Of a stretch of DNA of 64,000 nucleotides, positions 1 through 53,700 are shown in pieces (the first letter of the stretch is position 1; every line of letters starts with the position of its first letter). The notes beneath the pieces are model-generated. The model made no database searches and was not told the origin of the DNA. It saw only the letters and a program-made list of their open reading frames with translations. Position numbers and translations under genes: made by a program. The stretch comes from Cymodocea nodosa. Taxonomy: Eukaryota > Streptophyta > Magnoliopsida > Alismatales > Cymodoceaceae. The DNA lies in assembly GCA_036874045.1 (NCBI GenBank), contig CM072336.1, forward strand, positions 25,991,501 to 26,055,500. Direction: 5' to 3'.

Positions 1-1760
1 CAAGAGCATTAACAGTTTTATGACATTTTGGTGTAACAAAAAATTGAGTATTAATTTTACAAACAAAAGTCTCAATAGATATAACAATGTTCTTTCTATC
101 CTTTAAAAGATACACCCAACATACCCGTGAGAAATCATCAATAATAACAAGATAGTACCGATAACCATGAGAAGAGGTTATATAGCTAAGACCCCATACA
201 TCACAATAGACTAAATTAAACATAGCAAGACTTTTAGTGAGAGAAACACGAGGATAAGACGAATGACAATGTTTGCCTAGTTGACAAGATTCATACTCAA
301 ACTCAGAAACATCGACCTATGGCAACGCCTGCTGAAGTTTGTGGATAGAGGGATGACTAAGCTGTCGATGCTAGAGAAGAGACGACTCGATAGTAGAGGA
401 CAGTGAGGCAACAAAACCATGTGAAGGTGCATCTCGAGCAAAAACATACTCCCTAGTGTTCTTCTTATGGCCTAAACCAATACTCATTCTCGTCTGTAGA
501 TCCTGAAAGGTACAATGGAAAGGAAAGAAAGTCACAAAACAGTGTAATTGAACTATGATAGAACTAATAGATAGTAAATTCATAGAAAGCTCAGGGACAA
601 AAAAGGTATTCTCAAGTCGAATATCAATAGTGACATCAACTATGCTACATCCTGATATTGGACATGAGTGACCATCAGCTACAGTGACACTTTGAAGGTT
701 GAGAATTTTCTGAAGGCAGGAGAAAAGAGAAGGGCAACCTATCATGTGTTGAGATGTACTTGAATTAACAATCCAAGTTGGTGCCTCACTTGCACGCACA
801 GTTATGCTAGAAGTAGAAGCCAATGATGCAACAGTAAGGGGGCTAGAGCCCTATGCCCACTTCAACCTCTCATATTCCTGCTAAGTGATCACCATAGAAG
901 CTTCCCTAGAGGTACCACCTTTTGCTGATGTATCATGGAACTCTGTCACTACCATTGCTTAAGTAAGTTTGCCAAACTTTTCCTAGCATTTTTCTGACCG
1001 ATGATTGACTTTTCTACAGTGGATGCAAGGAACCCGACGTTGCCTAGTTCCTCCCTGATCGAATCCTAAGTTGGGATGACTATCCTGTCTACTCTGTATT
1101 CCCTTAGCTGCTAAAGCAAAGTTGTTCTAAGTTTCAATACTTGCTAGATTGCTAGCTTTGGATATGCGTAAAACCTTGGCAAAAGTTGATCCTAGATCAG
1201 GTGTAGTATCTCCCCCTAGCAAATGGCCTCGGACTTGGGACACTAACTTTTGGGGAAAGCTAAACAAGAAGGCAACCACCTGTAAGTCATTCCTATAGTG
1301 TTACAATGTCACCAGGTCGGTGGTCGATGGTTGAAAGACATTCAATTCCTCAAAGAGAAACCTCATAGTCCTATAGTACTCCTACATAGACCAACGACCC
1401 ATCTTGAGTGTGAAAATCTGCTCATAGATGTCATAAACCTTTAGAATATTTCTTTCCTTTGCATACATCTACTTGAGAGTATCTTAGATTAACTTGGCTA
1501 GATGAAGCATCATCACACCCTTGGCAACTAACGGTTCCATACTACTTTCTAACCAAATGATGACAGTGGCATCATCAACAAATCAGTCATCATATGTAGC
1601 ATTCTTGATGTCTATCGACAGTTGAGTAAGATACTTGCTCTTTCTTTGTGCAGCTACAAACGTAAGAAAACTCAAGGACCATGTATATTAAGCTCATTGA
1701 GCTTCACTGATAGTCCAGATAAAGGATAGATCATCGATTCCTTCAAAGCCATTCCAAAAC
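1..1760 (-). mobile_element. Ty1/copia gag-protease-integrase pseudogene (partial)
   Basis: Read on the minus strand from about 1760 down to 1, the translation follows the copia order. A gag segment has phrases such as IWLESSMEPLVAKGVMM and FEELNVFQPSTTDLVTL. A CCHC zinc knuckle, CIHCRKVNHRSEKC, lies near 1010-1050. The protease site is WIVNSSTSQHMIG (near 735-780), where intact copies have W-I-D-S-G/A-x-x-H-M. The integrase start (1-370) has CQLGKHCHSSYPR, VYCDVWGLSY and YYLVIIDDFSRVCWVYLLKD. Several in-frame stops occur in gag, and the catalytic Asp of the protease is Asn, so the copy is dead. The longest open stretch is 371-823. The element leaves the window before reverse transcriptase. 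It may lie in the fifth intron of the ERDJ2-like gene if that gene continues leftward. Confidence 0.85.
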
Positions 1761-19912: not shown

Positions 19913-21584
19913 ATGGGTTACTGGAAAACGAAGGTGGTCCCAAGGATCAGGAAGTTCTTTGACACCAAGACTGGTCCTAACAAGAAGGCTGCTGCCGATG
20001 CGTGCAAGGACTTTGATGAATCAAAGGTGTGCTGTGTTTTTCCCCCTTTTAGATTCTGATTTCGTTTGGGTCTCCTTTGTCTGGAGCGATGATCATCTTG
20101 ATTGGGTCTATGGTGTGTATATATCGCAGGAGAAGATGGATAAGGAGTTGGAAGAGAAGAAGGAGGAGCTCCAGCCGAAGGTCATGGAGATCTACGAGGG
20201 TTGCACTGCAGAGATCAAGGTATAACACCACCACCACCACCACCACCTTCCTTAATACATATCTATCTATATGATAATGATATAAATATATTTACAATTC
20301 GACCACCCAAAAAATTGATTTTTAAAGGTGACTCCTGATTTGTATCTGTATATTGAAAAATAAAAGAGGAAGATCAATTTGTTTTTAATTAATTCTGGAG
20401 AATCAATCAACACCAAAACTATAGTTTCATATATGAGAATATTGGTATATATCTTGCATACAAAAAAATCTTAATTTTCGGAAATGAAATTGTTATTTCA
20501 AACTAAATCAATTAACAATCACCAAAAAATTTAAAGATAAAATAAAACTTATCAAAAAATAAATCAATTAATATGTATGGTTGGTTGCCAGATCTCCAGG
20601 CACTGAAATTTTTGTTGACTATGCTGTTTGGCGAATGTCGACATTTGATTGACAAGAATATTATTACAGCAAAAAGTTGGCATCTTTGCCTTTATCCAAA
20701 CATAAAATCCAGAGATTTCCCTCTCATTCCAAAATCAATTATAATAACTCAATTCATCAGAAATAACAATATCTATGATTTTCTTTGAAAATTTTGAATC
20801 TTTCGGAATGAAAAAAAAAGAAGAAGAAAAACACTGTTATCGCGAAAACCAAACCTGTTTGCCTGGCTTGTCTTGTCCGATGACTAACAATCGTTTGCTG
20901 GCTTGTTTGTCCTCACTCAGGCGGTGCTGAAGGACCCATCGGTGGCTTCCGTGGAGAAACACTCTACCCTTGTCAACAAGCTTCTTGAAGATCTCGCCCA
21001 GATAGGTATATTTACAGAAAAATGTTAAATTCTAATCATTGATCATGAATTGCCATAATCAGCTCGGGCAACAATATATTCCGACTATAGTTGTTGGCTG
21101 GTCGATCACATGTAATTTTCTATAACCTACGATGGATAAAGAGTGCAGTTCATTCATCGTTTTTCTTTTTCTTTTTTCTGTTGCAGACTTTCCTGGATCG
21201 AAGAAAGCAAGCGAGGCATCGGCCAAGTACGGTCCAGTCCTGGTCTCCAGCTCGGTGTTGTTCGTGTTCGAGAAAGTTGCCACCTTTCTTCCGGCAGAAC
21301 CAGAACCAGAGAAGGCGGTGGAGGCGGAGGAAACCCACAAGGAGCCACCCAAGGAGAAGGAGGAGGAGAAGACGCCGGCCGCCGCTCCGGCGGAGACTCC
21401 GGCCGCTGCTGTGGAGGTGAAGAAGGATGAGGTGGAACCTGTGGAGGTGAAGAAAGAAGTGGAACAAACCCCACCGCCTCCACCAGCGGCCAAGGAAGAG
21501 GCACCCACCACCGAGGAACCGGCGCCGGCGAAGGCTACCGAGCCGGAGACGGCCACCAAGCCGGCAGAAGGAGGGAAGGCATGA
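19913..21584 (+). CDS. PCAP1: Plasma membrane-associated cation-binding protein (DREPP/PCaP family)
   Basis: Four coding exons, 19913-20026, 20130-20219, 20921-21005 and 21187-21584, join in frame to give 228 residues. DREPP/PCaP proteins bind Ca2+ and phosphoinositides and sit on the inner face of the plasma membrane. The start MGYWKTKVVPRIRKFF has the family's N-myristoylatable Gly2 and the basic phosphoinositide-binding stretch. The middle has EKMDKELEEKKEELQPKVM and KYGPVLVSSSVLFVFEKV, both typical. The C-terminal half (about residues 130-228) is a Glu/Lys/Pro/Ala-rich tail with repeated VEVKK and EEAP units. The last exon is much richer in G+C than the introns. The start codon is fixed by the myristoylation context and follows a GAGAGA-rich leader. 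Many long open frames overlap the last exon but are shadows of it. Confidence 0.95.
20225..20248. repeat. (ACC)n microsatellite in DREPP intron 2
   Basis: Seven to eight ACC units lie immediately after the intron 2 donor of the DREPP gene. Confidence 0.9.
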
Positions 21585-29631: not shown

Positions 29632-32382
29632 TTATTTAAAATAAAACGGCTTATAAATTATATGTGGGATATGTTTGATCTTTGCCCAATCTTTTCCACC
29701 TTCTTGACAATTTTGAATAAGTTCTCTGTTCCCTGAAATATACAAACTTTGAATAGAACCATTATGTTGTATCCAATTAGGTAAATCATGCATCTTATTA
29801 TCATGTATCTTGACATATTTCAATGTGCTAACATTTTCAACTTCCTCTAAAGCAGAACATTCTGAAATTTCCAAGTTTTCAAGATTGTAGAGGTTTGAAA
29901 TTCTTTTCAAATAGGGCATGCCAATAATCTCCAATTTCTCAATGGATGAAACGTTTTCTATAGCTTTGATGCTGAAAGCTTGCCCTATTCTTAATCTAGT
30001 TAGACGGGGAAGAGATGATCCAGACGTCCAAGTTGGGAGCTTTCTTCCATAAAATCCATTGATGATAAGTTCTTCGAGGCACTGTGGCGGATAGAGTTGT
30101 TCGACCACCTGCTCAATTCTACTAATACTGTCCTCTGTTGGTTGATGCGTGATGTATATAATATTACAAGACAATACAAGAGTTCTAAGGTTAGTTATCT
30201 CTCTTAAAGCAGCAACATGAGTAGCACTTGTTGTGATCGACATTCTCTGTAACTTGACAATGTGAAGGTAGTGAAGCTTTGACAGATGTTTCAATTCAGT
30301 TATTGTACAACCAAATTCTTGCCTTTCAGGTACGTCTCTTGGACCCATCACAAATCCATCAAGTCTTCTAAGATCTGTTAATCTCTTTATCTCTTGAGGC
30401 ATGTAATCAAGTGAAGTGTTTCTAATAGAGAGATCTCTCAAATTAGTCAATGAGCTAATGCCTTTGGGAAGTTTAGAAAGAAATGTACAACCACTAACGT
30501 TCAACATTAGTAGATTACGGAGGCAACAAATAGATTCTGGCAGCTCTTTGAGAAATGTTGAAGAGATATTTAGAAACTTCAAGTGCACAAGTTTTGCTAT
30601 AGAACGAGGTAAGATTTGAATTCCTGTTTTACTTAAATCCAAAACACGTAGGTAAACTAGTCTGCTAAAGATATCATCGAATAAGTTCCCATGAACTTGA
30701 CTTCCACTGAGCAAAAGTGTCCTCAAACAACCCTGCTTCTTGATACCATGGGGAATCTTCACATTTTCTGTATTCATCATGGAAAGGTGTCGAGTCTGCA
30801 AATCTTTGGCATTTACCAACTGTGCATCTTCTGAGAGGCACTCATCTTTTGCTAAGAAACACGCAAGAGAACGAACAAGATCATGCATTTTAAAATACTC
30901 CATATCATAATCATTACTTAGTACCTGAAAAAGTCCTCTTTCAATCAACTCCCAGTAGTATTCTGTAGCTATGTGATCCATATCTGATTGCCCTGTCGCT
31001 TTGACGAAACCCTCTGCAATCCAAAGTTGTTTAATGTCAAATAGTCTTATCTCATAGTCCTCAGGAAACAGAGAGCAAAACACAAAACATTGCTTAAGTG
31101 GGGATGGCAGTTCCACATAGCTCAAGTACAAAGCATCCAGTACCCCCTCGGGAAGCTCTTTTGAGTTCCATATCTCATCAGCTATAATTCTCTCCCATTC
31201 TCTCTTGTTTCTAAGTCTCTTCCTCAAGACCCCTCCAATGGCCTTGACGGCCAATGGCAAGCCACGACATCTATTAATGATCCTCAGCCCTGTGCTCCTC
31301 AAGGTCTCCATATTTTCGTCTCTAGTTTCATCTTCGAACACAATTTTGCATAGCATCGACCAGCAATCCTTGTCAGACATAAGTCTCATTTTGTGATGAT
31401 GCATTGCACGCATCTGCCTTGCGATCTGCTCGTTTCTAGTTGTGACCAAGATCTTGCTACCAATACCAGTGGTGTTCAGCAATGGTCTTCGAAGGACATC
31501 CTCCCAGACCTGTACGTCCCACACGTCATCGAGCACTAGGAGGAACCTCTTCTCACTGATTGTCTCCTTAAGCTTTAGGTCGAGCTCAGTCTTCGTTTGG
31601 GCCTCACCACAAATACCTCCTACAGATCTGATGATCTGCTTAAGGAGATTAACTTGGGAAAAATTTTGGGAGACACAAACCCAAACCTTGACGTCAAAGT
31701 GCGCATCAATCTTATCACGATTGAACACCTTTTGAGCAAGGGTAGTCTTACCTATACCACCCATCCCAGTGATCACATCAACGGTCGCAGGTGTTCTAGC
31801 CACGTCGTTCACCTCCACCAACCACTTCACAAGTTGATCCACATCTTCGTCCATCCCAACAATATCAGATTCCAGAACCGAAGGCGATGTCTCCCTGTTA
31901 GAGAACCTCCTTGTCGCCCCTGTAACATCAACATTCTGATGAAAACCACCACCCAGCGGCGACGATGTCAACTGCAGCTCCAATCTCAACTTATGCATCT
32001 CTTCCAACCTTGCATTGATGCTACCAACCCTAACCCCCATCTCATGGCGGAACGGAATCCCAATGATGCAGGCCAACAAAGAAACGTAACACTGATGGTG
32101 GCCTTGGTGCATTGCCATCTTGGCCGCTTTCAATCGGCAATCGTCAACAAGGTCGTCGACGTCGTACACGACTTGCTTCAAGTCCACCAACCACCGACGT
32201 ACTGAAGCATCACGGAGCTGCTTGCCCTCAGCATCTTCGATGACTTCTTTTATGACTTCTAGCTTCCTTTCCAATTTCCTTAGCTCGGTTGTTACGCCAG
32301 ATAGCAGTCTAGCCTCGCTCTCGATCAAGGACAGCAGCTTCTCCACGAGTGTAGGGACAACGCTGCTCAACACCATCTCCAT
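29632..32382 (-). CDS. CC-NBS-LRR (CNL) disease-resistance protein, RGA type
   Basis: A single uninterrupted reading frame of 916 codons encodes a complete NLR immune receptor of the coiled-coil class. These are cytosolic ATP/ADP switches that trigger cell death on effector recognition. In order it has a coiled-coil Rx-type N terminus (about 1-150), with DVDDLVDD at 74-81 where the EDVID-type motif lies, and then the P-loop GMGGIGKTT (206-214). The NB-ARC motifs follow: VKVWVCVSQNF (231-241), LLVLDDVW (281-288), GSKILVTTR (308-316), GLPLAVKA (374-381) and CFVFCSLFPEDYEI (432-445). The MHD motif is KMHDLV (498-503). Leucine-rich repeats run from about 555 to 905. All key motifs are intact, so it may be functional. 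No intron or premature stop is present. A (TA)n tract lies about 70 bases upstream. The start at 32382 is the first Met and gives the usual MEMVLSSVVP beginning. Long plus-strand frames over this gene are shadows. Confidence 0.97.
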   Translation of the reverse strand: MEMVLSSVVPTLVEKLLSLIESEARLLSGVTTELRKLERKLEVIKEVIEDAEGKQLRDASVRRWLVDLKQVVYDVDDLVDDCRLKAAKMAMHQGHHQCYVSLLACIIGIPFRHEMGVRVGSINARLEEMHKLRLELQLTSSPLGGGFHQNVDVTGATRRFSNRETSPSVLESDIVGMDEDVDQLVKWLVEVNDVARTPATVDVITGMGGIGKTTLAQKVFNRDKIDAHFDVKVWVCVSQNFSQVNLLKQIIRSVGGICGEAQTKTELDLKLKETISEKRFLLVLDDVWDVQVWEDVLRRPLLNTTGIGSKILVTTRNEQIARQMRAMHHHKMRLMSDKDCWSMLCKIVFEDETRDENMETLRSTGLRIINRCRGLPLAVKAIGGVLRKRLRNKREWERIIADEIWNSKELPEGVLDALYLSYVELPSPLKQCFVFCSLFPEDYEIRLFDIKQLWIAEGFVKATGQSDMDHIATEYYWELIERGLFQVLSNDYDMEYFKMHDLVRSLACFLAKDECLSEDAQLVNAKDLQTRHLSMMNTENVKIPHGIKKQGCLRTLLLSGSQVHGNLFDDIFSRLVYLRVLDLSKTGIQILPRSIAKLVHLKFLNISSTFLKELPESICCLRNLLMLNVSGCTFLSKLPKGISSLTNLRDLSIRNTSLDYMPQEIKRLTDLRRLDGFVMGPRDVPERQEFGCTITELKHLSKLHYLHIVKLQRMSITTSATHVAALREITNLRTLVLSCNIIYITHQPTEDSISRIEQVVEQLYPPQCLEELIINGFYGRKLPTWTSGSSLPRLTRLRIGQAFSIKAIENVSSIEKLEIIGMPYLKRISNLYNLENLEISECSALEEVENVSTLKYVKIHDNKMHDLPNWIQHNGSIQSLYISGNRELIQNCQEGGKDWAKIKHIPHIIYKPFYFK

Positions 32383-32829
32383 TTTTCTCCTCTCTTCTCC
32401 AACCTCTTAGATTTCCAGAAGCGATGGTTGAGCACCCAAGCAGGGGACCAAGTGAATATATATATATATATATGTATATTATGTAATTCACTTATTCACC
32501 CCATACAATGGAATTAATATACGAAATTGCAAAAGCATAACCAAAGCGTGAAGGAAACAACAAGGAATAAATTATTACATGGTGTAGAATAAAATACACG
32601 TCGACAACCAAGCTATCGCTGGACGACTCCTCAAATAAACATCATGACTACAACTTGGCTATCAATTTATCGAATTTCTTTTTCTATTGTGGCTTAGCTA
32701 GAATATCAACAATTTGTTTTCCAGTAGAAATATATCATGTCTAACTGGATTCCGTCGCGAATAGAATAAAATAACAATTCTTGACATACATAGATTAAAA
32801 TATCAAATTCCAATTGACCTACATAATTT

Positions 32830-38700: not shown

Positions 38701-41700
38701 GTCAACGTTTGACCATTCTTCATGCTTGCAAAACATGTCTAGTTATTGATCCTGCTACTACTACAGCATCCATGATAGTTAGTTTTTGTTGGTTCGATCA
38801 TTAAGTATCTTCTTGTTTAATTGTTTGGGTTTATTACAAGCCAAATTCTCCAGCATAAAGGGAGAGACAGAATATTAGGATAGTATGTGTATTGCATCTT
38901 GTATGTGGGTTTAGTTCTACATTAACTTACACTCGCCTTCTCTATGCAGAGTCTATACATAGAGGCTTTATGCTTTGTTAATGAATTAATCCACTTCTAT
39001 CATTTCTAGTTTTCCCAAGGCCCATAGGAAGTACTTCGTACAGTCCATGAGAGGCAAAAAGGCTAACCCAAATACAAGGGGCTCTAGTGTTGATCACTAA
39101 GGTAATGGTTGTAAACAAGGTATCCATTATCGAAATCATATCAAATTTCTATGCAACGAATAATTGAAACATGTTGAATATTGATGAAAGCATGTTAACA
39201 CCAAGGAAATGGTACAAAAAATCAAGATTTTGATATAAATATTTCAAGAAATACATTATTTCAGTTGACATTAATCTATGCTGACTTATTTTATTTTTCA
39301 CTAGTGAATGCTCATGGCAGCAATAACATCATTTTCTACCAATGTTTGCATTTTTCTAAATAGGGATAGTCGAATCCCAAACCTTGCACAATTTAACCTA
39401 ATTTATAACATCTTAGACACCTCTTATGTGTCTTGATCCTTTTATGTAAATACCTCTTAGAACTTCGATATTTTTCCAAAAGAGTTCTTAATATTTTTAG
39501 AATAACAATAAAGTCAATGTATGCATAAAATTCACAGATGTACTGATTAAAGCCAGGTATTTATTATTACCTTATGTTTTGTATGTATGCATATTTGCAC
39601 GTACATGCATACATACACATGTGTGTATGTATATATTATGTATGCAGGCATGTATGCATGCATGCATACATCCATACACATACATACATACGTATGTACA
39701 AGTGCATACATCTATGATGTATGTGTCTATAAAATTTTAAAGGAATTGGAAATTAAAACATTTAAAAAAATGGGTGTTCACCAAACATTTTTTGGAAAAA
39801 TAGTATAAATAACAAATAAATATAAATATATTTACAAATATACAAGCATCAAGTTAATTAAAGGAATTTAATGGAATAAATTATAATTCAATTCCATGTA
39901 ATACAACTTCAGAAAAAAAAAATTATTACGTGTAATTATCACACTACTGGTAGGCGAGCGCTAAATGTTGTTATGAGGCATCTTTATGCCTGGTGTTTCT
40001 CATTTCAAGCTGTATACTTTTTGTTGGATCCAATAAAGATCCACCATCCTATTGTTTCTTTTAAGGATTTTTTAATCATTTTTAGTTAAATTTGAATAAT
40101 TGAGCCTTTATCTTGAATACTGAGAGTTGTTCACCTTTCTTTGTTTATTCTCAGTGTGGTAAAAAAGGAAAAAGGACATTATACAGATTTAAAATTAAAA
40201 CCTTTTTAAATAATGAGACCATGGGTGCTTCCCAAAAAAGATAGTATAATGAAAAAAATGAACAAATATATTTACAGATATAAAAGTACTACAATCTCAA
40301 AATAATTGCATAAAATAAATTATAATTCAGTTACATCTAATACAATTTTAAAATATATTTTTATTATATATAATTATTATTTAAAAAACAAACACTTAAA
40401 GTCAAACATAAATAAATAAAATTACAAATAAAGTTATACAAAATAAAATAAGTAACAAAATAGTAAAATTATATCAATGAAAACAACTCAAAAGATGAAA
40501 TCTAAAAAAAATTTAAAAAACATTTCAACAGCCAAAAAGGGGGAAAATAGCCATTTTCTCAGAATAAAAATGGCCATTTTAATGAAAAATGATCATATTT
40601 CAAACTGTTTCCTTTTTCCAAAAAAACAAATTGAGGCAAACAACGTATTCCTATTTTGTGCTCTAATTCCTATAGAACAGGGAATTATAGTCCTCAAGAT
40701 TATTTTCTACCCTACTTTTTAGATAGGAATCCATCAAATATTCAATTGGGAAATATAAATAGACAACTTATGAACAATGACTGTCACCTGTGGAGTTCTA
40801 TTTTTATTCTTTTGTATTTTTTCATTTACAACTGAACTAGTAGAACCGTTTTTTAGCTTTCATAGGTTCAGTTGCCGTTGCATTTTTAGAAAATTTAGTG
40901 GGAAAATTAAAGCTGCTTGTACAGTATTTTACCATAGCACCTGCAAAGACACGGGTAAACAGACCATGGAAAATTATTACTTATATTAGACAAACATGAT
41001 AACAAGTGTGAAAGGTGATGTTATAAAAAAGAAGAAATTCCAGCACTTAAAGATTAACATGTGAAACAAGATAACCACTATAACCGTAGTGTGGCTACTT
41101 ACCTCCATCAACAAAATATTGCCCTTCCAAAGTTTGTAAAGGAGTATCCGTGCTTCATTTTTTTCAACAAACGTCATATCTGAAATCTATGATATTTTAA
41201 CATATAATTATAGTTACTATTCATAAAAGAATTACAAAAATAATGACCAAAGAGTAATGCAGTTCTTAGTATTTTCCAATAAAACAGTTCTACGTAAAGC
41301 TCCATAAAATGAAATTTCACATGCATAGTTCCTCTTGGTGAAGTTTTTAGAATTGCAGTTAGACCTCCGTTCTTGAGTAAAGAGAAAGTATGAATCAAAT
41401 TTAATTGGATATTTTATAATATAAATAAAACTTATAATAATAATTAATATATATTACTTAAATAATTCTTAAATTTATTTAAATTATCTATTTGATTATA
41501 TCATAATATATATTTTATGCAAACCCTTCACTTAAATGTGTTCTAGATATAGAGATTAAATCTTTATAAATGTTAAAAGATCTCCAGAGTCTAATCCCAC
41601 AAAGTATGCATTTTTACAATTTATATAGAATAAAAATCCAGTCATTAGCATTTCTATATGAAAATATTAATAATATTTGTGTTGCTATTTAAATCTAACA

Positions 41701-44700
41701 AATTCAGGAAAAAAACACCTAAATTCATATTCGACCAAATCTGTATAACAAATATCCCTGTTCAAAAAAATTCAAATTTGAGTCCAAATTTTGTTTTGAT
41801 ACTTGGATCCATATTGCATCCCTAATTGAGATACAAATCAGAAGCTTAATTTGTGCTTAGGTCAGCATATATAAATTCACGCATTCATCCACTCATTTTC
41901 ACATTCACCTTTTGTTCTCCTATTTTTATGCTATAAACTAGGTGATGTCAGCATGACACCATAGAATAAGGTGATTTTTGTGTTCCGTGTTCAATTATTA
42001 TGAATTTCAACTCCTTCCAAATAGTCAATGTAACCTACTTCACTTGTGTTTTCTCGTGACTCAAGAGCTAGTGCCCCTTCCCTCATGGTTATAAACCCAT
42101 TTTAAACTTGATTTTTGTTAAATAACTCATTTCCATCTTTTTGGCCTATTTGATTTGAATCAATTGTAATATCAAAAATCCCTTAGACCAATCTCTTTTC
42201 AATTACAGATTATATCCAGATCGGCATATCAATCAAATCTTAAGATTTTTTGTATGAAACAGAGATCCTTTTCACCTACCAACGGCAGGTGCACCAATTA
42301 CAGCTACAGGTATGTTTCTCCTCTCTCCTCTTCAATCCTCTTGATCTCAATTCCAATTGGGTAAATCTTTGTATTGATAAAATAGAAGGCTCTCGATCTA
42401 CAATCCAAAGGTATTTTTCATGGGAGAAGGCATCAAACCAATATTTGATTTCTCTTCAACTCTATCGTAAGGTGGATTCTCATTTCCATCTCATTTCTTT
42501 AATTTTAAGACAAATCTAAAATATTTATATTATGTTTTAAGTTTTTTTACAATCTTTGAAGTTTTTATGAATATCAGTGATTTTCTATGGCTATTAGTCA
42601 ATATATTAGAGAATAGTAATTTTCAAAGAATGTTGGTGATTTTGAGTGAATATTAGTGATTCTCAATCAATATTAGTTAGTTTCAAAGAATATTAGTTAT
42701 TTTCAGAGAGCATTAGTTATTTTCAGAGAATATTAACGAATTTCTGTGAATATTAATGATTTTCAGATAATACTATTCATTTTCAATAAATATTAGTGAT
42801 TTTCGTTGAATATTAGTTATTTTCTGAGAATATTACATATTTACAGTAAATATATTTTACAAATTGCATTGATTCCACTTAATCAATTACGAAAAAATGA
42901 TGATTTAACTTATATCATTGGTCTTACTTGTAGTTACCAAGATATCAAGTAGATCAACTGAAGTGAGTGACCATGAACAAAATTTTGGCAAAAATGAAGA
43001 TCCCAATTGGCTCCATGGGTTTCCTATTGATAACAATAGGAGAGACCCAATGAAAATATTGTGGTAGGAAAATAAGAGGACGTAGCATATCCAATTTGAA
43101 ATAGCATCTGGTTGGTCACTACAACAATATCACGAAGTGTCCATGTCCTACCATTGTTAGAGGACAAATGAAACAGTTACTGACAAACAAGTGCAAACAA
43201 GAGTGAGTAGGAGGTATGAATGGTTCAAAAGTATCTTAGAGTAGAAGGCTAAGCAAATTCCATGTAATGGTGGAGAAAAGAGTCAAAGACTCTCAATGTC
43301 TATTCTTATTAATGACAATGACAAAGACATTGATTACCTACCAACCTGATATGATAAACAAAGAAGAACAAAAATTTTATAAAGAAGCAATGATGTGATC
43401 TAGACAAAAACAAAGGCAAAGAGGGCAATTTAAACTCTCATATGATGCTTCAAGAACTACACTTTGAGAAGGGGAGTACAACAAGTACACTGCATCACCT
43501 ACTTCAAGTAGGTTTAGAACATACAGTTAGAAATTTGATTGTCCAAATAAAGCAGTTGTGAAATGAAACAAAAGATGCATTTACACCTACTACCAAACAC
43601 CTACTCCTGTAAGAATTCTGAAGTTAATTGTGTTTGGGTGGAAACAAAATCAAGATGGGTGACCACTTGGGAAATTCTCATACAATATTTATAGACAGTA
43701 ATGCTGGCTCTGCCTAGGTGTAGGCAAGCAGTAGGTATGTGCACCTACCTAAAAATCATGTGTCGTATCTTGTCTCTATCAGTACTCTCGATTAAGTTGA
43801 TGGATAAGACTACTTAGGTACCCCCAATTAATTGAGAATATCTGAGAAACAAAGTGCATGGTACATAGGATCAAATTCTAAAAGAGTGTTCTTCTAGGTA
43901 CCTAGGAAAGCCTATTTTTGCAAGCTTTCACCTCTATGGATACTCTTGGTATATACTAGATTGTTTGAGTGTCTATAGAATATCATCCATTATTAACTAC
44001 ATGGATACTCCTATATTCACTAGATTGTTTGAGTGTCTATGGAGTTTTACTTGTTATCATCTACATAAATACTCCTGATGTACACCAGGTTGTTTGATTA
44101 TCCATAAAGTGTCACCTTAAAAAAAAAAAAAAAATGAGACAAGTATAAGCAAAGGACATTGAAGAGATATAGACAAATGGCAAAGAAAAGATTATAGCTG
44201 CTATATCAAAGTTCATATTTTATAATGTCATTTCCACAAATGCAACTAAAAAACCATATCTACAACATATGGTAATTGTAATCACAAAAGAAAAGCCAGG
44301 TGTATAAGCACCATCATGTCTAATGGATAGATGTTTGCTATGTCAAAGTAGATCAACAATTTCATGGCATGCCATGATAAAAGAGCTATTTTCTTGAAAT
44401 TCTTCCATGCATCAAATGCTACATGTATCAATATAAATTGATTTCTGATGTTGCCAAGGAGGTTGCACCATCAAATGTGTAATGGGTGGTAATAGGCAAT
44501 GGTGTCAACTTTAAGAAAGCTGAGAAAAAGATAGTGGAAAAGTAAGCTCTTTTTGAACATCATGTGAAGAACATTGTATTGATTTTATATTAAAAAACCT
44601 TAGAAAGAGTAAGCTGATAGGAAAACTAATAAAATTAGTTCAGCTTGCCACGCACATCTACAATCAATCACTCCTATCATATATGAAGTCACTTTAAGTC

Positions 44701-47700
44701 TATGGTGGTGACAGGTGCATTTACACCTACTACCAAGCACTGACTCTTATAAGAACTCTGGAGTTAACTGTGTTTGAGCGGGAGCAGAACCAGGATGGGT
44801 GACCACTTGGGAAGTTCTCGTGCAGTGCCTATGGGCAGTTGTGTTGGCTCTGCTGAAGCATTGGCAAGCTGTAGTTGTGTCCACCACTTACCAAAGTGGG
44901 CCTAGCGAGGCCCCTTACAAGCTTTCGTCTTCTTGGATACTCCTGAACTGTTTGAGTATCCATTGAGACTCACATGTTATCACCTCCATGGATACTTCTG
45001 GTTTGAGTGTCCATGAAGGTTCACCTTCTATCACCTCTAAAGATACTCCTGGTGTTCACCAGGATGTTTGAGTGTCTAAAGAAGACATTTGAAAAAAAAA
45101 AAAAAAAAAAAAAAAAGAAATGAAAAAAAAAGTCTATGGTGGTGACTTAAATCTTAGGGTTACTCATATCACCACCAACTACATGGCAATTCAATCTATA
45201 CTTAACAAGAAGGCAAATCAAGACACATGTTTAATTTTAAACTAGATACAAGCATTTAAAAAGTGAGAGCCCAATTATCAAGGTGTTGTCAATCATGAAT
45301 GATCATACATTCTAAGAGATTGCTAGGAAATGTGTTGCAGTTACAAAATCTATTTCAAAGGCTTTAAGATATGTTGATAGAGATAAGAAACTATTAGAGT
45401 ATAAGAGTTAGTAGTGTTACGTTGGAAGAGGAAATCTTGACTATCACCCTCCTCCCTTCCACCATTACCACTGACAACCTGTTCACTCACTCACCTATTC
45501 ACTCACTATCCTCTTCCATCCAACTGTCATGGCCGTGCGAGATTGAACTTCCTTTGGTTTACTTTAGTCTAGACTGCAACCACCATGTTCTTTCCCTATG
45601 ATGCCCCTCCTCCGACTTCTCTATGACTATGATGTTGTGACATGCAAATCTCTCCTATGTTGACCTCAAAAAAAACTCTCCTTGACATCATCCCTATCAC
45701 TGATGTTGCTAACAATGATCGCTATCTTTATATGAAATATTGAAAATTTTCAATGAACACATGAAATTACTAATATCTAATCTTATTTTTATTATTCAAT
45801 TGAATGGTGGGTAATCCATGGGATAGACACTCTTAATCTAAGGAAGATTACAATTAGAGTGCTTTTTTACACTACCTCTACTTCTAACTGTGAAAGAAAC
45901 TAAAGCACATTCAACTCAATCCTCGCAAGGTAGAGAAATAGACTAGAAGTGTAGAGGTTGAATTAATCTTCGTTCACTAAAATATAAGACTTCATATAAA
46001 GCAATAATTGATGGAAAAGACCACAATATGTATATCCAATTGATGCCACTTTCATCTACAAAAATTAATGCAATGAGGATTCTATTGTAGAATACATGGA
46101 ATAGAATGAGAAGCCAATGCTTGATGAGAAGGGTAGGAGGCTATATCAACATAATGTAGAGCAATTAGGTGTTGTTATTGATAAATAAATTAAATTCCTC
46201 TTCACAATCTCATGGTGTTGAAAAGTCTAGGCATAGAGCCAAGCACAAACTTTGATAATAATTCCATAGTCTCTAGATGATAATGGTGGTAGAGCATCAC
46301 CACTCCTCCCAAATGGTTAAGAGGTTTACCTCTCATCCTTAAGTTGCAAGTTCGATTTCCCACACTCATTTTGCTAGAGGAAAAAAATTCCCCAACTTAT
46401 GTTTGGCTGTGGGACTCAATCTCGTGACCTCAATGTCATACAACTACAAGGTAACCATTGGGCTAAGGCCCACCAAATAAAATAAAAAGATGACAATGAT
46501 AGTGATGATGGTAATGGTGATGGTTGTGGCAGTAATATTCTTCATTCTAAGAGTCAAAGATCACTTAGTCTATTTACAAGAAAGGGAATCTTTACCCATG
46601 CCACCATGATCAAGATCATGGAGCTAGGTTACTTATAGACATGATTATGAGCCATTGTTATATTATGACACAACAAAAGGCAATATGGCAAGAAAATTTA
46701 ATTCATTTTTGTCATAGATCTTCAAGAGTTTATATATGAATAATCCTAAACCTCGACCTCATAGTCAAGATCCTTAGACGTACAGTCTCTATAAGGATCA
46801 CACCCCTATTTGATAACTTCTCTGATGGTGATAAACAAATTTGCTATCATCACATGGTGAAGGAGCTTCTAAACAAATTTGCTATCATCACATGGTGAAG
46901 GAGCTTCCAATAATCATATGGCCAATCTAGTTACTACATCATCACTATTCTTTAAGTCAACATGGTAAAGGAGTTGTAGAATCCAATTATGGTGCATATG
47001 ACCCTTTCCTACAGTTAAGAGAATTGGAACTCCTACCCCAAAAGAACCTAAAAATATCATCATAATACTTCATCATTTCCCACATCTCGTACATGTACTT
47101 GATTCAAAATATTATAAGTGAGTTACAGATTATCATACTATTTATAACACTCAAATTACAATGGAAACATTACATAGTGTAGAGACAACAAATGACGTAC
47201 AACCAAATGTTCCGAAAATATCTAGCACAACAAGGACAAGGCTACCACCCTTCAAGGCAATCAACCTAAAATTGATCTTAGTATAACTTAATTATATTTT
47301 AAATCATTTGACACTATGGACTATTTTTCTATTACTTCTGCATAATTTAAGATGTTTTTCATGCATGCTACTGTCATATATCAATCTAATTAACATTTTA
47401 TGCATGATAATTGCCTAAAAAAATTATCAAAGTATCTTTATATGACTATCATAGCCTGTTTTATCATACGCATGAGTTTCAATTTGAAATTCAGAGATTT
47501 TGGCTACTTCCACCAAAGTATCAAATTTCCACCAATACGATCCTTGACACATTTCATTTTTTTTTGAGAGACCAATCTTCGATACTAATACTTAAAGGTT
47601 CATAATGTCATTTAACAAGGGAAAAATTCTAGAATCTACAAGTTCCTGGTACTAGAAAATTTCAAAAGGTTCAGACAATAATGTCAAAAGGTAATTTCTA

Positions 47701-50700: not shown

Positions 50701-53700
50701 ATAACACCATTTGTCATTCACATGTGCAAATATGATTCCAATTAAGTATTGGACTATCATGTCTTTGACAACAAAACTCTTACCAGGATGTTCACTGATC
50801 ATCGGCATGTCCATAGTCTGTCATAACAACACTCCACATAAACAACAATACATGACCTTTGTTGTTCTACCTGATAAAAACTAGGTGAACCATTACACAT
50901 TGTCCAAAACCAACCTCTGTTGCAATCTAAATGAAGTTCACAGGCCAAGCATGAGGATTATTCTTGAGACCATATATAACCTTCTTTAGTAAGCAATCCT
51001 GGCAACAAACCCCAGAAGTCAATCCATAAACACATGTTCCTGTAGCTCTCTATATAAGAAAGCATTTCAGACATACACGCAAAGCAATTGTAGATCTGTG
51101 CAGCTGGGGTCAGTTTCTGGGGCTATTGGAGAACATATCTTCCTCCAGAAATGAGAAGGTTGTAATCCACCACCAGACCTGGGTTGATATTTGCTGTTTA
51201 TGATACTGACCCAAAGGCCCATATCCTGCCGAAGTGACCTCCAGAGCCACTTCACAAAACAGCAACATTAAAAGTTCCCTCAAGGATCTAACATTAAGTC
51301 CTCCATGACTTCTTGGTTCACACACCAGTACACTTGACAAGGCATATACCTTTCCTCTCCTTAAAGTTACCACTCCATAGTCAACTCCTGAATTTCTTTT
51401 CCAATGAGTTTATAACCCCTGCAGGAATTAGGCAGGCATATTAAAGATTATAACCCCTGCAGGAATATAGACAGATATATTAAAGATTATAACCCCTGCA
51501 GGAAAATAGACAGACATATTAAAGATTGGGATGCTTCTCAACACACTTTTCAAGAGTATCAACCTTCCACCAAAACTAATATATCTGCCCTTCCAGCCCT
51601 CCAACCACTTATCAACCTTGTCTACTAAAACCTCCAATCTGGCCTTCTCAGCTTGCACATAGAGAGCAGCAATCCTAGATAAGGGAGGAGACTCCATGTT
51701 GCACTGTAAAATTCTAGCTGCTTGATCACTGAGGCTGCTGTACACAGATACCCATCACTGAGCTGATGTAATAATTTATCCTAAGCCCTGAAATTAATTC
51801 AAACAGTTTAAGGAGGAATTTTAAATTATGTATTTGATCAACCAAAGGTTCACAAAAGAAGACCATGACATCCACATATGAAGCAAAAAAAACCAAAACA
51901 TTATCACCGCCACATCTCCGTCCCCATATCCATCCATTTCTACTAGCTGCACTGCACATATAGGCAAGAGAATTAACACCAAGATTAAAAAGAAGAGACA
52001 ATGAGTCTCATAGTCTGATCCCATGCATCTAGGAGAAGACAGCCCATGATTTGCCATTGATAAGAACTGAATCTTATGTTAAAGTAATAGATGTCATAGT
52101 CGAAGTCAAGGAAGAATCAAGGGTCCTAAGTGTGGTCAAGGAGCTCCCCAACAAGGAGGCCTTCTAAGCCCAGAATTATCGGATACACCATGTGGAGCCT
52201 CCAAAGGACCTGGGCTCAAAGGTTGTACAGGAAAAAAGGTTGGGGATGCAGCAATCAGAATTCTGACAAGGATGGCAATCAACCCTAAAGAAGGAAACCA
52301 ACGGGAAAGGGGGGAAGCTTCCTCATCAAGCCCAACCTTTCTGCAAAAAAAAAAAATCATCAATTGCATCACCCATTACATCAACCTTACAAGACCAGCA
52401 ATTATCAAGCCACATGTTTGTCAGTTCATACGGCACTGATCCCAATGACCCCAATGCTATTAAAAAGACAAATCTAATCTTTGACTAGATGGACCACTTT
52501 ATTGTTTTTGTTTGATAACAAGAGTATGGATTCTCATCAAACCCTTTTATGCTATGAAGGCTTTTGGTAGCAAGCCCACAAGACTCCACTTAGACCAATA
52601 AGCCCAAAAGGCTGGACTGGACCAGAAGCTTTTGAATTCACTAAATCCAGAGCCACAATGTAGGCCCAACTCAGCATGCAGTCTTGAGCCCAACTCACCA
52701 TCAACACTAGTTGGGATAAGGCAAGAGAGACAAAGAATAGCATGACCTTCTGGTTGGGTTGGGAAACGAAGTCAACTTCTCCAATCTTTAAACTCATAAA
52801 TGAAGATTGCCTTGGAACCAATGGCTCAGGATCATCTAATGGCAAGCTCTATTCCCCATCAAACCCTTGTTGGAGGCTAGAAGGGTGGAACCAGAGGTTG
52901 GCAGGATGAGTTATCAACCAACATGCTTCATTCATAGGCTATCATTTGGAGGGAGAAGTGGCTACTTAAAAGGGCTTAGGAAATTCTAGATGCTAAAGAT
53001 GAGAGTGAAGGTGTGGCATTGGAGGGCATGGACAAAGCCGGTTATTAATGAGAACCCTGAACTGGAATGTTGAGTGGTGTGGCAAGGTGGGCAAGCAAAG
53101 GTTGGTGGGTGAGTTGGTGAGAAAGTATGATGCAGAAATTTTGGTGTTACAAGAGACAATTGGAGCAGTTGAATGGGTCGATCCTTCAAGTGTTACACAC
53201 ACAACGATTCAATAAGGGCTTTCAAGGGATTTTTCTGGTGTATAGTAGGTGTTTTCTGAACCTAGAGGTTGTACTGACGGAGCACATTATCTCAACACTC
53301 TTTGAGAATATAGAAAACTTGAGGTGGGTTCTATGGCTTATGCTCTACAGGATCAAGATCGTAAGAAAATATGTTGGGTAGAGTTGAAGGAAATAAGATA
53401 TGAATGGACTCAACCATGGCTGATCAAGGGATATTTCAACTGCATTAAGCAGCCTTTGTAGAGATCCATTTGGGGGAATTTTACCATATTGATTTGCTTC
53501 AGCTTCTTGATTTGCCAATGGAAGGTGACTCCTTAGAAGAATCTCTAAAAGCAACATACTTTTTCAAGAATTGATAAAGGATATTGGTAGACAGTGGTTG
53601 GGAGTGATCCATACAGAGCAACATCAAACCATATGTCACTTATCTTAAACTTGAACAATGAAGGGCAGCAAAGTCCTTTTAGAATTGAAACCTAATGGAT

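Follow-up and report, generated by a model that had tools for sequence, protein, structure and literature searches.

The stretch analysed here, called the window throughout, comprises 64,000 nucleotides (64 kb) of the seagrass Cymodocea nodosa (contig CM072336.1, positions 25,991,501 to 26,055,500 of the forward strand), and it contains two copies of a repeat that begins with a 5S rRNA-like sequence and that very probably represents a family of short interspersed elements (SINEs). The presence of two 5S-headed copies is confirmed: they occupy positions 43573-44134 (copy 1) and 44713-45129 (copy 2), on the same strand and 1140 bases apart, and in both the parts follow in the order full-length 5S rRNA-like head, body, three tandem tail units and poly(A). 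A third copy was not found in the window. The parts are the following (window coordinates; nt, nucleotides).

43561..43572, no strand: probable target-site duplication, 5' copy, copy 1; 10/12 against 44132-44143
43573..43691, plus: 5S-derived head, copy 1 (more diverged); Rfam RF00001 28.7 bits, below cut-off, model 1-120; 95/118 to copy 2
43692..43929, plus: body, copy 1, including a 128-nt block (43746-43873) missing from copy 2
43930..44112, plus: three tandem tail units, copy 1 (43930-43982, 43993-44047, 44056-44112); fold z -3.28, -4.71, +0.38
44119..44134, plus: poly(A) tail, copy 1
44132..44143, no strand: probable target-site duplication, 3' copy, copy 1; 10/12 against 43561..43572
44696..44712, no strand: target-site duplication, 5' copy, copy 2 (AAGTCTATGGTGGTGAC); 17/17 exact against 45130-45146
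44713..44831, plus: 5S rRNA-derived head, copy 2; Rfam RF00001 38.9 bits, model 1-120; 88/115 to a plant 5S gene
44762..44773, plus: box A-like motif (type I RNA polymerase III (Pol III) promoter), copy 2; 11/12 to the Cassandra/5S box A motif in the majority sequence
44792..44804, plus: box C-like motif AGGATGGGTGACC, copy 2; 13/13 in the majority sequence and in 31/42 copies
44832..44925, plus: body, copy 2, defined by copy alignment; no known RNA family matched (Rfam, up to E = 1)
44926..45086, plus: three tandem tail units, copy 2, hairpin-capable inverted repeats (44926-44972, 44980-45023, 45031-45086); fold z -4.56, -4.20, -2.31
45092..45131, plus: poly(A)/A-rich tail, copy 2
45130..45146, no strand: target-site duplication, 3' copy, copy 2; 17/17 exact against 44696-44712

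Copies 1 and 2 are 78% identical across their first 173 nt and differ by smaller gaps in addition to the 128-nt block, for which no significant match was found elsewhere in the window and which is possibly an insertion, possibly the sign of a longer subfamily. Judged from its divergence, copy 1 would be either an older copy or a member of a different subfamily. Copy 2 is flanked by AAGTCTATGGTGGTGAC, identical at 17/17 positions, while the best border match of copy 1 (AAATGAAACAAA / AAATGAGACAAG) reaches 10/12, a level attained by 12-mers at 33 of the 63899 plus-strand positions of the window, its own site counted; because 10/12 is the best match, the duplication of copy 1 is regarded as only probable. 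The initial annotation, made from the window alone, had described two copies in the same orientation with a 5S-like head, a common body, three tail units and poly(A), all of which we found again, and its 17/17 duplication for copy 2 was borne out; for copy 1 it had also proposed a probable duplication, which still stands as probable, but with 10/12 in place of the 10/11 that it gave.

The repeat has no coding capacity, the longest stop-to-stop frame inside copy 2 being 62 amino acids (aa). No protein was found at E<=10 in protein-database searches with a 97-codon read-through query or with seven candidate open reading frames (ORFs) derived from the SINE, and exact sequence patterns of the element gave 0 matches in viral contigs and in genome contigs.

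A search of the host assembly (374.6 Mb, 28 contigs) with copy 2 retrieved 47 matches; 44, counting the query itself, are near full length and 84-100% identical and are spread over 19 contigs. This copy number is a lower bound, given that the best 40 of 908 first-look candidates were scored. Forty copies fetched with their flanks, together with the two in the window, form the set of 42 examined below. Leaving out window copy 1 as too diverged, the remaining 41 differ from their 404-nt majority sequence by 1.8-5.9% (mean 3.8%), a spread that is biased low, since searching with copy 2 preferentially retrieves sequences close to it. Poly(A) or simple-repeat 3' tails are present in the set, with no clear tail in L016, L038, L047 and L048. 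The closeness of the two window copies would suit an origin as processed 5S pseudogenes or by segmental duplication rather than as a mobile family, but body and tail are common to the copies while flanks and duplications differ at many sites, and we give this explanation practically no credence.

The 5S-derived nature of the head is supported by several comparisons. Copy 2 exceeds the curated Rfam 5S_rRNA cut-off of 38 with its 38.9 bits over model positions 1-120, and copy 1, at 28.7 bits, lies under it yet also spans positions 1-120. Compared with an angiosperm 5S gene, the heads of copy 2 (88/115, z = 14.3) and copy 1 (76/116, z = 10.3) score far above 1000 dinucleotide shuffles each. Among the 20 of the 40 fetched copies that were given to Rfam, 15 reach the curated score, with up to 49 bits over model positions 1-120. 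In 34/42 copies the 5' end reads AGGTGC and coincides with base 1 of the 5S model. Measured against the published Cassandra/5S promoter motifs (PMC7215508), box A is present at 11/12 positions in 41/42 copies (11/12 in the majority sequence) and box C at 13/13 in 31/42, with a spacing of 18 nt between them in 42/42. TTTT is absent from the interior of the element in 32/42 copies.

Exact duplications of 12-17 bp flank 19/42 copies, two of these within telomere repeats, where their length is ambiguous, and for 34/42 the score exceeds the 95% level obtained with 123 mismatched-flank controls. LTR (long terminal repeat) elements leave 5-bp target duplications, and none of that length occurred among the 19 exact cases. 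In 21 copies selected for a clean duplication (18 exact, three with one mismatch), the nick site has T or C at -1 (21/21), A at +1 (21/21), A at +2 (18/21) and C or T at +4 (20/21). The resulting consensus, TY|AARY, is the pattern expected of L1-type endonucleases, and it strengthens the proposal of the initial annotation that the repeat moves by means of a long interspersed element (LINE). As confirmation of a SINE family, that annotation had called for dispersed copies with duplications and poly(A) of their own, which is what the 44 near full-length matches and the 19 exact duplications represent, and the 47 genome matches leave no room for its converse case, in which only two copies would exist within a larger element. 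The telomere association, the tail hairpins and the LINE described below lay beyond what that annotation had access to.

Another class of plant element that carries 5S sequence is Cassandra, an LTR retrotransposon with 5S in its LTRs, and the repeat could in principle be a solo LTR or a TRIM (terminal-repeat retrotransposon in miniature) of this type. Box A, box C and the 18-nt spacing do agree with the motifs given in PMC7215508, and reports of Cassandra cover monocots, dicots and ferns (PMC10853983). However, the Cassandra primer-binding site (PBS) TGGTATCAGAGC finds a best match of 7-9/12, as in shuffles (up to 10), the 5' end in most copies is the first 5S base instead of TG followed by LTR sequence, and the copies carry exact 12-17 bp duplications and poly(A). 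The chance-level PBS, the lack of a TG 5' end, the long duplications and the poly(A) thus led us to reject a Cassandra or LTR identity, which we consider highly improbable; with no PBS above chance and no 5-bp duplications, the earlier assignment to SINEs gains support.

A different relationship to Cassandra would be that the SINE descends from a Cassandra transcript retroposed by a LINE and not from cellular 5S rRNA. The head is about 22% diverged from the angiosperm 5S gene used above (majority sequence 90/115) while the copies differ by a few per cent, so that a 5S donor which was itself diverged is conceivable, and according to Kojima 2024 the Cassandra transcript starts in the 5' LTR and extends to the 5S within the 3' LTR. 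On the other hand, the match spans all 120 positions of the 5S model for each of the two window copies and for every one of the 15 copies passing the Rfam score, and no Cassandra PBS lies downstream. This origin seems to us unlikely, with some weight left to it.

Several results count against the description of the family as SINEs with a 5S promoter. Five of the 20 copies given to Rfam score under the curated cut-off, and the box motifs are weak alone, as shuffles reach at best 12/12 for box A and 12/13 for box C, for which reason the promoter assignment rests on the 18-nt spacing and the Rfam match. Ten of the 42 copies contain TTTT, a possible Pol III stop, and transcription by Pol III is a prediction from the internal promoter-like boxes. 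Eight of the 42 copies lack a duplication above control level, copy 1 among them, for which the scan is uninformative as its 3' end was placed inside the element, and the control maximum score of 22 exceeds all but one of the observed scores, probably owing to the mutual likeness of telomeric flanks. As for the tail, the three units of each window copy are inverted repeats predicted to form hairpins, and five of these six give more stable folds than shuffled sequences do (z -2.3 to -4.7), the third unit of copy 1 (+0.38) being the exception; selection on these hairpins was nevertheless rejected, given that covariation among the six units is no higher than in shuffles. Taking both sides together, we hold it very likely that these repeats are non-autonomous non-LTR retroposons and form an angiosperm SINE family with a retained, diverged, full-length 5S rRNA promoter head.

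For a SINE of this kind, the following cycle can be proposed. Directed by the internal box A/box C promoter, RNA polymerase III would initiate on base 1 of the 5S head and continue across the body, all three hairpin units and then the poly(A). As read from the insertion footprint, the DNA would next be nicked at TY|AARY by the machinery of an L1-type (APE-endonuclease) LINE, and the nicked strand would prime reverse transcription on the poly(A), leaving the duplications (12-17 bp in the 19 exact cases). Some members of the family would in this way have entered telomere-type arrays, in which an L1-type LINE appears to accumulate as well; the SINE copies found there may be explained by the plant telomere repeat CCCT|AAACCC, which fits the nick site.

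Seven of the 42 SINE copies lie inside CCCTAAA-type telomere repeats, and in 7/7 the sense strand of the SINE is the CCCTAAA strand. With contig ends used as a proxy for chromosome ends, 10 of the 44 near full-length matches are 70 kb or less from a contig end (a limit chosen after the positions were seen), at four ends, and their poly(A) points into the contig in 10/10. At the ends of contigs C1, C10 and C17 the elements form chains of LINE, telomere repeat, SINE, telomere repeat and LINE. Deleted SINE fragments were also seen head-to-tail at the start of contig C5 (L057:28-370), possibly a SINE-derived subtelomeric tandem repeat.

The LINE in these chains is of L1 type, its ORF2 encoding endonuclease, RVT_1 and zf-RVT domains and its ORF1 DUF4283. 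In 7/7 of its 3' ends that were read the poly(A) joins CCCTAA-type repeats directly, a biased sample in that all seven were taken from contig tips or telomeric SINE loci. Genome-wide, with the best 40 of 66 candidates scored, the LINE 3' end gave 105 matching pieces that merge into 39 loci, of which 23 are 50 kb or less from a contig end, 12 are interior and four are on contigs of unspecified length. The 23 end-located loci fall at 18 different contig ends, with all 12 at left ends on the plus strand and all 11 at right ends on the minus strand, so that the poly(A) points into the contig in 23/23; some copies lying side by side at a single end may have arisen by duplication, which means that binomial figures overstate independence, but the orientation rule holds across the 18 ends regardless. 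Stretches at the right ends of C5, C6 and C7 were fetched to test this rule, the expectation not having been recorded beforehand: just inside the ends of C5 and C6 the LINE has the expected minus orientation with no telomere arrays beside it, and just inside that of C7 pure telomere repeat extends across 8 kb. Two or more subfamilies can be told apart by their identity to the C1 unit (about 66% in one, 84-97% in another), and the family is located near contig ends, in several cases within telomere-repeat arrays (L049, L050, L054, L057, L061, L064, L066, L069-L073). Five fetched contig tips are wholly N, and telomere arrays were not seen at four fetched tips (C3 right, C9 left, C10 right, C11 left); on C11 and C9 the LINE is present at the ends opposite the array-less tips. 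There is no DNA match to the telomeric LINE in the window or in the fetched loci L001-L008. A 51-aa fragment similar to LINE ORF2, 47% identical to that of the telomeric LINE, lies at window positions 51488-51637 (minus strand) and is a remnant of some LINE.

On the basis of co-location, orientation and a compatible nick site, we hypothesize that the telomeric LINE moves the SINE. More broadly, there might be a telomere-directed retroposon system, in which an L1-type LINE inserts into (CCCTAAA)n with its poly(A) toward the centromere, a 5S SINE shares its machinery, and the two are interleaved, so that chromosome ends would consist partly of LINE/SINE/telomere-repeat chains, as in silkworm or fly but here in a flowering plant; we put this forward tentatively, at somewhat less than even chances. 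Two results speak against the telomeric LINE as helper: 34 of the 44 near full-length SINE matches are more than 70 kb from any contig end, and the idea that the SINE and this LINE have a 3' end in common was rejected, no score exceeding shuffles in 6/6 LINE ends. Since the tail is unlike the LINE 3' end and most SINE matches lie away from contig ends, the role of this LINE as helper is unproven. The same two results, together with the generality of the TY|AARY site, favour movement of the SINE by a general L1-type LINE, the telomeric copies then reflecting target-site fit or better survival in gene-poor ends. Against such a general helper stands the finding that at C1, C10 and C17 telomeric SINE copies are placed between telomeric LINE units oriented the same way, and we lean towards a general helper only slightly.

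Elsewhere in the window, a single-exon CC-NB-ARC-LRR gene of 924 aa (29632-32406, minus strand) has matches of at most 42% identity, mostly from monocots, among the best 120 of 3655. An exon of a DREPP-family plasma membrane cation-binding protein lies at 21126-21584 (plus strand; 16 matches, the named ones from eudicots and one magnoliid). A retrotransposon Pol fragment with Pol_BBD (371-850, minus strand) is probably of Copia type. A simple-repeat-like stretch at 39570-39728 gave microRNA and other Rfam matches, all under the curated scores.

SINEs with a 5S head are already known from animals, namely AmnSINE1/SINE3, springhare Ped-1 and lepidopteran HaSE3 (PMC10886601, PMC3747384), and 5S-related SINEs occur in the fungus Aspergillus fumigatus (PMC5063351). 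The family described here shares with the SINE3-type animal and Aspergillus elements a 5S-derived head within a SINE, and differs from them in occurring in a plant, in having a 5S head of full length, three hairpin units in tandem and poly(A), and in a 3' end not traced to a LINE. In searches of the open-access literature we found neither a plant 5S SINE nor a land-plant telomeric LINE, although this is not proof of absence; within that same scope, the result fits the initial suggestion that the class is poorly described or undescribed in plants. With Cassandra the family has in common box A, box C and the 18-nt spacing, but it lacks LTRs and PBS and has long target duplications and poly(A). 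The tRNA-headed plant SINEs (p-SINE, Au, ZmSINE, TS) are likewise short plant retroposons attributed to LINE machinery, whereas here the head is 5S and the tail poly(A); monocot SINEs listed in Table 2 of PMC3747384 end in T runs. A search based on tRNA boxes would miss a 5S-headed class, which, if general, adds a promoter type to plant retroposons and might be where Cassandra acquired its 5S, a derivation mentioned as speculation in Kojima 2024.

The companion LINE resembles TRAS/SART of insects, Zepp of Chlorella, MoTeR and FoTeR of fungi and HeT-A of Drosophila in its location in telomere repeats. To our knowledge no such telomere chains have been reported from a land plant before, and they would open the question of whether retroelements occupy plant telomeres to direct tests. 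In HeT-A, TART and TAHRE the poly(A) is also oriented toward the centromere, and in the list of telomeric elements in PMC10088271 (2023) Viridiplantae are represented by Chlorella Zepp1 only. Compared with the known telomeric LINEs, the element of C. nodosa is distinguished by its L1 type, with a DUF4283 ORF1 and an ORF2 of endonuclease, reverse transcriptase and zf-RVT, by its flowering-plant host and by the 5S SINE placed between its units.

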